Assembly: GCF_000314735.2 (NCBI RefSeq)
Contig: NZ_KB375270.1
Span: 124,001-188,000, forward strand
Source of the DNA: Afipia felis ATCC 53690
GTDB lineage: Bacteria > Pseudomonadota > Alphaproteobacteria > Rhizobiales > Xanthobacteraceae
Direction of reading: 5' to 3'
DNA: 64,000 bases
Position numbers and translations under genes: made by a program. The first letter of the stretch is position 1. The number at the start of each line of letters is the position of its first letter. The notes under the pieces were generated by a model. It searched no databases and was not told the origin of the DNA. It saw only the letters and a list, made by a program, of their open reading frames with translations. This document shows positions 15,506 to 35,284 of this stretch, piece by piece.

Positions 15506-16726
15506 TCAGGCTGTCGCCGCCATCGCCTTGGTCAGGTTTTCCGCGACCTTGTCGAGGAAGCCGGTGGTGGAAAGCCACTTTTGGTCGGGACCGACCAGCA
15601 GCGCCAGATCCTTGGTCATGAAGCCTGACTCGACGGTGTCGACGCAGACCTTCTCCAGCGTCTTGGCGAACTTCGCCAGTTCGGCGTTGTTGTCGAGCTT
15701 GGCGCGGTGGGCGAGACCCTGCGTCCACGCGAAGATCGATGCGATCGAGTTGGTCGAGGTTTCCTTGCCCTTCTGGTGCTCACGGTAGTGGCGCGTCACG
15801 GTGCCGTGGGCGGCTTCGGCTTCCACCACCTGTCCGTCCGGCGTCAGCAACACCGAGGTCATCAGGCCGAGCGAGCCGTAACCCTGCGCCACGGTGTCGG
15901 ACTGCACGTCGCCGTCGTAGTTTTTACAGGCCCAGACATAGCCACCAGACCATTTCAGCGCCGAGGCGACCATGTCGTCGATCAGACGGTGCTCGTAGGT
16001 CAGGCCCTTGGCTTCGAACTTCGATTTGAACTCGGTGTCGTAGATCTCCTGGAAGATGTCCTTGAAGCGGCCGTCATACACCTTGAGGATGGTGTTCTTG
16101 GTCGACAGGTACACCGGATAGCCGCGCGACAGGCCGTAGTTCATCGAGGCGCGGGCGAAGTCGCGGATCGAGTCGTCGAGGTTGTACATGCCCATGGCGA
16201 CGCCGGCGCCGGGGGCCTTGAAGACTTCGCGCTCGATTACCGTACCGTCCTCGCCGACGAACTTCATCGTTAGCGCGCCTTTGCCGGGGAATTTGAAGTC
16301 GGTTGCGCGGTACTGGTCGCCGAAGGCGTGGCGGCCGATGATGATCGGCTTGGTCCAGCCCGGAACAAGACGCGGCACGTTCTTGCAGATGATCGGTTCG
16401 CGGAAGATGACGCCGCCGAGGATGTTGCGGATGGTGCCGTTCGGCGACTTCCACATCTCCTTGAGGCCGAACTCCTTCACGCGGGCTTCATCAGGGGTGA
16501 TGGTCGCGCACTTGACGCCGACGCCGTACTTCTTGATCGCGTTGGCGGCGTCGATGGTGACCTGATCGTTGGTCTTGTCGCGGTATTCCATCCCGAGGTC
16601 GTAATATTCGAGCTTCACATCGAGGAAGGGGTTGATGAGCTTGTCCTTGATGTACTGCCAGATGATCCGGGTCATCTCGTCGCCATCGAGCTCGACAACC
16701 GGGTTCGCTACCTTGATTTTGGCCAT
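15506..16726 (-). CDS. icd: NADP-dependent isocitrate dehydrogenase
   Basis: A 406-aa enzyme of the eukaryote-like, dimeric IDH subfamily common in Alphaproteobacteria. It oxidatively decarboxylates isocitrate to 2-oxoglutarate in the TCA cycle. Landmarks are [14 protein letters not shown] at the N-terminus, [10 protein letters not shown], the phosphate-binding [12 protein letters not shown], and [14 protein letters not shown] near residue 310 for NADP. ATG 16726 opens [15 protein letters not shown], the family start. It is transcribed alone and ends at a strong terminator. The divergent intergenic region contains the 21-bp repeat array. Confidence 0.97.
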
Positions 16727-16986
16727 GAGGATGCGTGCCTTTTTTTGAGGTTTTTGGAGTGTGTAACCGAGGAATGCGCGCCTCTTAGCACCCGCGGAAC
16801 GGCGGCGGAAGGCAGCTCAAAGCAGCATTTGGTGAGCGGTATTCCGGCGCGATCGGCAGGCCTGCCGTGTGCTTTCGCCAAGGCGGAATCGTCGATTCAA
16901 AAGGGTTCCGTAACCCATTCCGATTACAATCGAATTTCAGTCCGGCCGAGCGCCGTTTGGCTGCGATTTTCCGCCGCACGGAGGCG

Positions 16987-17196
16987 TTGAATCGTTTTCT
17001 TCAGAAGTTGATTCAACTTCTTAAGCGCCTGAATCATCGCCTTCAGGCGTTGATTCGGATTGTTCGCTTTCTGAATCAAAATCTTATCGCGTTGATTCAA
17101 GACCTTCGCGGCTTGATTCAGCGCCTTCAGGGCTTGAATCGGCACCTTCGATGGTTGATGCAGGCGCTTCAGCCATTGAATCGGAAAGCGAAGACG
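16987..17196. repeat. Ten-unit 21-bp tandem repeat with phased GANTC sites
   Basis: Ten contiguous 21-bp units with consensus TTGATTCAGCGCCTTCAGGGC, degenerate, run from 16987 and end directly against the ATG of trmJ at 17197. GANTC occurs at 16989, 17010, 17031, 17052, 17073, 17094, 17115, 17136 and 17178. The unit at 17157 has GATGC instead. Two further GANTC sites lie at 16886 and 16894. The array is a multiple of three, in frame with trmJ and free of stops. It reads as heptads beginning LI or LN, and the opposite strand also encodes heptads. The rest of the 16727-17196 gap holds no other gene. Confidence 0.92.
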
Positions 17197-18378
17197 ATGT
17201 CGGGGACCGACAAGACCAAGCCGCGTACCGACCTGCCGGGCCCCGTGGTGGTGCTGGTGGAGCCGCAGCTTGGCGAGAACATCGGCATGGCCGCTCGCGC
17301 CATGGGTAATTTCGGCCTGACACGTTTACGTTTGGTGAAGCCGCGCGACGGCTGGCCGAACATGGCGGCCCAGCGGGCGGCGGCAGGTGCCGACCACATT
17401 CTGGAGCGGGTGGAGTTGTTCGAGACGGTCGAGGCGGCCGTGGCCGATTGCGCGCTGCTGTTTGCGACCACCGCCCGCGCGCACGATCAGGCCAAGCCTG
17501 TGGTCGCTCCGGATGCTGCAGCCCGCGAGATCGTGGACGAGACGGCGCGCGGCGCCACAGCTGGTATTCTGTTCGGCCGGGAGCGTTCAGGTCTGACCAA
17601 TGAAGAGGTTGCACTCGCCAATCGGATTGTGACTTTCCCGGTCAATCCGGGGTTCGCCTCGCTCAATCTGGCGCAGGCGGTGCTCTTGATGGGCTATGAG
17701 TGGTTCAAGCTGGCGTCTGGTGGTCAGATACCGTTTTCGATGCCGGAGCGTTCCGAGCCAGCGTCCCAGCATCAGATGCACGCGTTTTTCGACAATCTGG
17801 TCGCGGAACTCGACAAGGTCGAGTTCCTGCGCCCAGCCGAGAAGCGAGACGTCATGCTGGTCAATTTACGTAATATTTTCAGTCGGATGGAGCCAAGCAA
17901 ACAGGATATGCACACCCTCCACGGCGTGGTGATGGCGATTGCCGAGGGGCGCAAGGGGCCGGCCAAGGGTGGGGTGCTCGATGGGACCCAGGCTGCGCAG
18001 CTGCGAGCGCTGTTGGCGGAACAGGGCTCCCCGGCAACCGAGGGCAGATCGGGTTCCGTGCGGGGGCTGGCGCGGCTGCTGCGCCGGAACCCCACGGATG
18101 CAGAGCGCATCCTCTGGCAGGCATTGACCAAGGACCGCCGCTTCGCCGCGCAGTTCAAGCGGCAGACGCCGGTCGGTCGTCACATCCCCGATTTCGTCTC
18201 GTTTCCGCGGCGGATGGCGATCGAGATCGTCCATCCGAAGGAAAGCGAGGCTGTCGCCCACGAACGCGCCGTACGGGCCGCCTGGCTCGCTGAGCGCGGC
18301 TATCGTGTAGTTTCGCTGCAGGCGGCTGATATCGAGCGTGATCTGGAAGCGGAATTGAGGCGTCTGGAAGAAGTCTGA
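17197..18378 (+). CDS. trmJ: TrmJ-like tRNA (Cm32/Um32) methyltransferase with C-terminal DUF559 domain
   Basis: A 393-aa protein. Residues about 15-175 are a SPOUT 2'-O-methyltransferase with VVLVEPQLGENIGMAARAM, GILFGRERSGLTNEEV and FPVNPGFASLNLAQAV. These motifs identify the TrmJ/YfhQ group, which methylates the wobble-proximal position 32 of tRNAs using S-adenosylmethionine. Residues about 290-393 resemble DUF559, a Vsr-like nuclease fold (LARLLRRNPTDAERILWQAL, then HIPDFVSFPRRMAIEI). The usual acidic EVDG-type site is replaced by EIVHPKE, so catalysis is doubtful. ATG 17197 directly follows the repeat array. An in-frame start at 16867 would add 110 residues of heptads. Confidence 0.85.
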   Translation: MSGTDKTKPRTDLPGPVVVLVEPQLGENIGMAARAMGNFGLTRLRLVKPRDGWPNMAAQRAAAGADHILERVELFETVEAAVADCALLFATTARAHDQAKPVVAPDAAAREIVDETARGATAGILFGRERSGLTNEEVALANRIVTFPVNPGFASLNLAQAVLLMGYEWFKLASGGQIPFSMPERSEPASQHQMHAFFDNLVAELDKVEFLRPAEKRDVMLVNLRNIFSRMEPSKQDMHTLHGVVMAIAEGRKGPAKGGVLDGTQAAQLRALLAEQGSPATEGRSGSVRGLARLLRRNPTDAERILWQALTKDRRFAAQFKRQTPVGRHIPDFVSFPRRMAIEIVHPKESEAVAHERAVRAAWLAERGYRVVSLQAADIERDLEAELRRLEEV

Positions 18379-18544
18379 TCCGGCGTTGGGTCTGCGCTGC
18401 GTTCAGTGCCCAATTTCGCGGCGGGTCAGCGCAGGCATTGGGCATAATAATTCGTTTGGCGCGTGAATTCGTATCTTTTGGCGCGAAAAGCGGCTGGCAC
18501 GACCGTTGCTCCTCTTGAGGCATCTGCAATGCTCAGGAGGCCTC

Positions 18545-35165: not shown

Positions 35166-35250
35166 GAAAAGAGCTTAGCTGGTCGTTGGTTATGAATGAG
35201 TTGCGGACGCTGCTGGCGTGAGGCGGCGCAGCCCAACGCTATACTCCAAT

Positions 35251-35284
35251 TTAGAGTAATTCCAATACTTAGAGTAATTCCAAT
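35251..35284. repeat. 16-bp direct repeat upstream of cytochrome b561 gene
   Basis: TTAGAGTAATTCCAAT at 35251-35266 is repeated exactly at 35269-35284 (18-bp period), 74 bp before the cytochrome b561 start. Direct repeats with this spacing can be operators, but no known regulator site was recognised. Confidence 0.7.

Follow-up and report, generated by a model that had tools for sequence, protein, structure and literature searches.

A constrained 21-bp ladder of GANTC sites beside trmJ in Afipia felis: a possible docking array for a methylation-dependent DNA-binding protein

The ladder in the icd-trmJ spacer

The window analysed here is a stretch of 64,000 nucleotides from Afipia felis ATCC 53690 (contig NZ_KB375270.1, positions 124,001 to 188,000), in which the spacer between the divergent genes icd and trmJ holds a ladder of short units (Table 1). 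As the initial annotation had it, the ladder comprises ten units of 21 bp, nine of which contain GANTC (at 16989, 17010, 17031, 17052, 17073, 17094, 17115, 17136, and 17178). Eight GAWTC sites run unbroken from 16989 to 17140 and are followed by GATGC at 17157, which the letters of the window confirm as annotated, and by GAATC at 17178. The setting had also been described correctly, with the 210-bp block ending directly at the trmJ ATG in the divergent icd-trmJ region. Three features were absent from that annotation: the unit is a near-palindrome, roughly [CA]AGNNNTTGAWTCAANNNCTT, its central base is nearly always A or T and tends to alternate, and comparable ladders occur at other places in the order.

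Table 1. Positions of the ladder and its neighbours in the window.
Feature	Position	Strand	Basis or remark
Ladder, ten 21-bp near-palindromic units, nine with GANTC	16987..17196	.	Letters read; core constraint between species
Two extra GANTC (16886, 16894)	16886..16898	.	At least 95 bp before the first ladder site, off-register
trmJ, SpoU/TrmJ methyltransferase domain with C-terminal DUF559	17197..18378	+	Start region aligned in relatives
icd, isocitrate dehydrogenase, divergent neighbour	15506..16726	-	Start 263 bp from the first ladder site

GANTC is the CcrM site in Alphaproteobacteria. The motif is scarce in the window: it occurs 144 times, or once per 444 bases, where dinucleotide shuffles give 343 on average. 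This under-representation makes the block a sharp local excess; nine GANTC within 210 bases in a single 21-bp register are far beyond chance. The two off-register GANTC before the ladder have a comparable pair at -312/-304 in the related locus L002.

The ATG at 17197 is most likely the true start of trmJ. The encoded protein fuses a C-terminal DUF559 domain (endonuclease-like) to the SpoU methyltransferase; its best named relatives align over nearly the entire length, the nearest named one being that of Afipia sp. 1NLS2. No sigma-70-type promoter was found at 16600-17300. Terminator-like matches occur in the spacer before the ladder at 16854-16867 and 16903-16916 (two, versus a shuffled mean of 1.1), and the sole Rfam match in 16000-18500 (mir-5911, E 0.31) was judged to be chance. 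Elsewhere in the window, an AT-rich short tandem repeat with a period of 18 lies at 35245-35284.

Distribution within the genus Afipia

A search for TrmJ over 61 genomes returned 30 loci, all of which were read, and 14 of these carry at least four GANTC in a 21-bp register upstream of trmJ when one-unit skips are allowed. A sequence-only model of four ladder units (R1) was made from 19 stretches, each 84 bases long and holding four GAWTC, taken from 12 of the 30 loci; because these stretches were chosen for GAWTC, matches to R1 resemble the source ladders. Searches with R1 over more than 40 genomes ran with stricter filters. The model matches 26 of the 29 genomes of the genus (23 of 23 among those of good quality), and the best match lies within 3.2 kb upstream of trmJ in all 26, as compared by hand. 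In A. felis no second place scores below E 0.1, so that the ladder is single-copy there at this threshold, and a BLAST search of the array against the same genome returned the array itself and eight weak matches, none of them a ladder, among which L034 holds one GANTC pair 21 bp apart. Weak extra matches within the genus (E 0.017 to 0.095) occur in G003, G004, G018, G020, and G028.

The position of the ladder relative to trmJ varies. In 20 fetched regions it lies beside trmJ, approximately 350 bp upstream (G003), or approximately 3 kb upstream on the icd side, the last arrangement applying to 10 of the 26 genomes with an R1 match. In four genomes with a distant ladder (G005, G013, G018, and G019) two genes stand between ladder and trmJ, and the one intervening gene that was checked resembles an EmrB-like transporter at a score under the family cut-off. 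The proposed tie to the trmJ start therefore stands only in part: the ladder adjoins the ATG in A. felis, but this position is not essential, given the ladders some 3 kb away in those 10 genomes and those beside other genes elsewhere. Genes are inserted within or beside the ladder in some genomes, as in G004 (L078), where ladders stand on both sides of the inserted stretch, and a two-unit relic persists at trmJ after insertion in G012 (L083) and G026 (L092). Among the three genomes that R1 does not match, G009 has trmJ with no ladder in the 1.5 kb examined, G023 gave no TrmJ match, and in G002 the TrmJ match is weak and partial.

Distribution beyond the genus

Ladders of two or three units lie directly at trmJ in many Bradyrhizobium and three Tardiphaga loci, and three units are found in L095-L101, which carry two further genus codes within the family (possibly Bradyrhizobium and Tardiphaga themselves). 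R1 matches 73 of 296 genomes of the family at E 0.01. At E 0.001 it matches 88 of 397 genomes in the order sample (49 at 1e-5 or better, A. felis included), leaving 309 with no match at that threshold, and 10 of 387 in the class sample, leaving 377. The phylum sample yields 29 matching genomes at 0.001 out of 397, a figure that covers the whole sample with class members included; 12 of its matches lie outside the class, none better than 8.4e-5 and so none passing E 1e-5, and we take these as the noise level. One family outside the order (f58) gives a good match (6.8e-10), with an array visible in L228, and the Shinella match H9 consists of two GANTC 21 bp apart, a longer array being absent.

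By sequence matching, 79 arrays of three or more sites fall into 20 groups of loci, and these approximately 20 groups are mostly from Hyphomicrobiales. Away from trmJ, where the surrounding ORFs were called by script and ten neighbours were given Pfam names, an array lies behind a CoA-transferase gene in one genus, a two-unit array lies at the end of tpiA (L184), another array lies between alaS and icd (L185), and several sit between convergent ORFs. As regards promoter placement, ladders are thus found at the trmJ start in some genomes, about 3 kb off in others, and behind gene ends or inside an ORF. In FemAB-like genes (PF04339), ladder units lie in frame within the N-terminal coding part, as heptads of an ES-rich linker; the Pfam search for this family was run only on L187, L190, and L216, and L186, L191, L194, L220, and L234 were assigned by likeness. 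The FemAB-like case appears to be a DNA signal written inside a protein linker. BLAST of the array against plasmids (15 records, best E 0.6) found nothing convincing, and the best match to phages (57 records, best E 0.06) was taken as chance. A general 21-bp spacing of GANTC was not found in sampled genome DNA (5 pairs versus a mean of 1.7 in A. felis, none in G451).

Constraint on the units and their base patterns

The initial annotation had raised the prospect that relatives keep GANTC while the other bases drift, and this is borne out. In a comparison made without selecting units for GAWTC, the three closest species (G000, G007, and G021) show 0 changes in 50 core positions in every pair, and 27, 18, and 15 changes per 160 array positions outside the core; when they are compared with G020, which is more distant, 3 of 50 core positions and 36 to 41 of the other 160 differ. 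The CoA-transferase locus, which belongs to another family, behaves similarly: across six genomes its spacers drift but its four GATTC sites remain in alignment. Six pairwise comparisons among four genomes gave 0 to 4 core differences in 24 positions (once 3 in 28), and 33 to 49 differences in 105 to 221 positions elsewhere in the array. Among the in-register units of arrays with three or more sites from 20 regions, 134 of 139 carry GANTC, an upper figure because array ends are GANTC by definition.

These data bear on the reading of the ladder as a selfish or neutral palindromic repeat, expanding by slippage or spreading in the manner of REP or Rickettsia elements. Such a repeat could be expected from the approximately 20 groups of loci without mutual match, from the several R1 matches per genome in some genomes, and from the in-frame copies within FemAB-like genes. 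However, unit identity outside the core is flat over distances of one to four units within an array (0.505, 0.494, 0.479, and 0.508); adjacent units are no more alike than those four apart, which gives no indication of recent expansion or homogenisation. The core is also constrained at both the trmJ and the CoA-transferase loci, and copy number is low, with one copy in A. felis at E below 0.1 and a handful in the richest of 11 genomes, so that a repeat of this kind appears quite improbable. The neutral minisatellite, which the initial annotation had named as the outcome that would overturn its proposal, is disfavoured by the unhomogenised units, by the constrained core motif, and by the retention of the locus in 26 of 29 genomes of the genus. 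A REP-type element is likewise disfavoured, as stem arms are not kept by compensating changes (the pair of positions 19 and 3 being a weak exception) and copies per genome are few.

The constraint extends beyond the methylation motif. In the arrays of the Afipia group, where sites were picked for GANTC with any N and the central base was therefore free, 132 of 134 sites have A or T at the centre; the count is 425 of 609 for GANTC elsewhere in the A. felis genome. At loci outside the genus the corresponding figure (122 of 128) is biased by R1 and is not counted as evidence. The TT..AA flanks and the CTT/AAG arms are conserved as well; something reads more than GANTC in this array. Within the Afipia group, A and T alternate at the centre in 100 of 125 neighbouring unit pairs. 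A recent duplication of 42-bp blocks was considered as the source of this alternation and is not supported. Arrays of other families keep one orientation of the centre, or nearly so (L202, L205, L210, L218, and L227). Outlying GANTC near the arrays appeared to be phased at 10.5-11 bp (113 neighbouring sites, before homologous loci were removed), but after the 79 arrays were collapsed to the 20 groups the phasing was not significant (21 sites, R 0.30, p about 0.15 with the longest array per group; R 0.20, p about 0.36 with random group members).

Reading frame and pairing in transcripts

The ladder could also be read as protein, either as a heptad extension of the TrmJ N-terminus, an option in the initial annotation, or as a small coiled-coil protein of its own. 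In favour of this, the trmJ frame runs open through the array in the window and in L002, giving L-(I/N)-(Q/R)-x-L, and also through the short ladders of L013 and L095; in 11 of 47 named loci no stop intervenes before trmJ. These 47 have two GANTC 21 bp apart no more than 260 bp from trmJ, and belong to a set of 80 named loci that includes one contig taken in both directions (L122, L127). The remaining 36 have a stop before trmJ, the frame offsets number 29, 12, and 6, and the array is out of the trmJ frame in L003, L004, L007, L018, L020, L024, L025, and L028. Counted by codon position (1, 2, and 3), G000 and G007 differ at 6, 13, and 8 sites in the array and at 3, 4, and 75 in trmJ; across the four close species, too, a third-position excess is present in trmJ and absent from the array. 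The A/T swaps at the unit centre would moreover mean swaps of isoleucine and asparagine. A conserved TrmJ extension is refuted by offsets in all three frames together with the stops, and with frame not kept and no codon-position signal the coding reading as a whole is extremely unlikely. Annotation pipelines may carry TrmJ wrongly into the array.

A further possibility is that, in a transcript such as a trmJ leader, adjacent units pair to form successive hairpins. The fold of the array is more stable than expected on both strands (z -6.85 on the forward and z -4.14 on the reverse strand), although a palindromic consensus by itself yields such folds. The central bases of neighbouring units are complementary in 81% of 137 pairs, or 79% of 122 distinct pairs, and one junction pair (position 19 with 3) covaries with p 0.001, uncorrected; these statistics on pairing and palindromy, and the count of alternating centres, come from units picked for GAWTC, so that the core columns are fixed by choice. 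However, the variable NNN bases are unpaired between neighbours (1.07 of 3 versus 1.16 when shuffled) and do not pair inside the unit either, the aligned sites at the CoA-transferase locus are all GATTC and lie behind an apparent terminator (judged by eye), and several arrays sit between convergent ORFs. Taken with both kinds of evidence, an RNA element seems a poor prospect.

CcrM, GcrA, and the candidate reader

A GcrA and a RAMA-domain protein are present in all ten genomes tested (A. felis and nine others), a count that demonstrates presence and not association, all ten having been selected for a ladder match. The A. felis RAMA-domain protein matches the solved CcrM 6pbd with E 1.1e-153 and is on that likeness a CcrM, although it scores 612.7 bits with the NCBIfam equivalog model of Caulobacter CcrM, below the cut-off of 830. 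As a CcrM marker, PF18284 was rejected, as it found nothing in the ten genomes and among the controls matched only E. coli. PF07750, the GcrA family, has a match above its cut-off in the archaeal control Sulfolobus acidocaldarius as well.

The best explanation at present, although we hold it tentatively and at somewhat less than an even chance, is that the block acts in cis, as a high-affinity docking array for dimers of a methylation-dependent DNA-binding protein, with GcrA as the leading candidate; of the three options in the initial annotation, the methylation sensor and the protein-binding ladder are those left standing. The analysis establishes the array itself, how it is constrained, how widely it occurs, and that CcrM and GcrA genes are present, whereas methylation of the sites, binding, the identity of the reader, and any titration are inferred. 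CcrM sites spaced two helical turns apart would all face one side of the helix, and once CcrM had methylated them several dimers of the reader could bind side by side. Replication would make all the sites hemimethylated together, and the array would then lose or change its load until CcrM acted again. The 21-bp step places the sites on one face, which is how SeqA needs GATC to be arranged in vitro (PMC5145175), a precedent for spacing by helical turns.

In Caulobacter, GcrA is described as dimeric and as preferring GANTC in its methylated form; the highest-ranking target in vivo, CCNA_00697, is an N-terminal coding sequence that contains three GANTC (PMC3667746). The GcrA proteins of S. meliloti and B. 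abortus have similar specificity on the probes of that study (PMC3667746). Binding was best for a three-site probe (Kd 4 uM), followed by a single-site probe (6.5) and a two-site probe (8.5), and a probe without GANTC was shifted by GcrA too (PMC3667746); this order and this shift suggest that more sites do not simply mean tighter binding. The order of the Kd values slightly lowers the docking reading and raises its rival, the operator. A reporter of the CCNA_00697 region was little affected by GcrA depletion, with a drop of 31% (PMC3667746).

That main rival, a real possibility that we nonetheless regard as less than probable, is that the ladder is an operator array for another dimeric protein, one that reads the palindrome TTGAWTCAA with its CTT/AAG arms, the overlap with GANTC being incidental and methylation irrelevant. 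Several observations that favour such an operator protein count against the docking array. CcrM needs GANTC with any N, and CcrM and GcrA are widespread in the class; the centre is nonetheless A or T in 132 of the 134 sites, the palindromic conservation extends past GANTC, and the matches are concentrated in one order, most genomes of the order and class samples lacking an R1 match. The docking array likewise leaves the alternation of A and T in the 100 of 125 neighbouring units unaccounted for. Also counting against it are the phasing of outlying sites that vanished when homologous loci were collapsed, the lack of a general 21-bp GANTC spacing in sampled genomes, the trmJ locus of G009 with no ladder in 1.5 kb, and the failure to find a sigma-70-type promoter at 16600-17300. 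Against an operator, we know of no candidate protein for the TTGAWTCAA site, some arrays lie behind gene ends or inside an ORF (as called by script), and the GANTC core is kept in every family met, the last being a weak point because R1 was made from arrays chosen for GAWTC.

For the docking array, the occurrence of similar arrays behind gene ends and inside coding sequence suggests that they may be storage or titration sites rather than switches of single genes. A more general and more speculative claim, which we consider unlikely but worth stating, is that phased GANTC ladders are an order-wide class of chromosomal elements in Hyphomicrobiales, methylation-gated reservoirs on which many dimers of GcrA or another reader would line up, to be released in one step when the fork passes. 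If so, the reservoirs would serve for titration and timing, with a role towards GcrA like that of datA towards DnaA. The docking array predicts strong, cooperative, methylation-dependent binding of the reader and a one-step change at fork passage. It may also be relevant to cases where GcrA binds strongly but controls the promoter little, as reported for the coding-region peak in Caulobacter. A conserved array in a fixed helical register is a ready-made probe for the reading of CcrM methylation away from Caulobacter promoters.

Likeness to known systems

Literature searches gave no title or abstract on GANTC ladders, and none was found in the parts covered of PMC3973325, PMC8725594, PMC11514494, PMC3667746, PMC11711589, PMC7987155, and PMC5145175. 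The Caulobacter target CCNA_00697 resembles the ladder in having several GANTC close together (PMC3667746). The target lies in coding sequence near the start and is bound by a dimer in a methylation-dependent manner, a property that the ladder would share if our interpretation holds; it has three sites where the ladder has ten units, and the sections covered mention neither a fixed 21-bp register nor a palindromic unit (PMC3667746). In gammaproteobacteria, SeqA binds pairs of hemimethylated GATC best in vitro when the sites are phased by whole helical turns (two to three), so that phased methylation sites are common to both systems (PMC5145175). SeqA differs in its site and in the methylase involved, and the likeness is an analogy rather than family membership (PMC5145175).

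Another comparison is with repeated palindromes, and it concerns architecture and genomic position rather than methylation. REP/BIME and Rickettsia palindromic elements consist of short palindromic units that lie between genes, behind gene ends, and sometimes in frame within genes. The ladder shares the short palindromic units and these kinds of site, and is unlike them in its low copy number, its strict 21-bp register, its constrained methylation core, and its variable arms, which do not pair.
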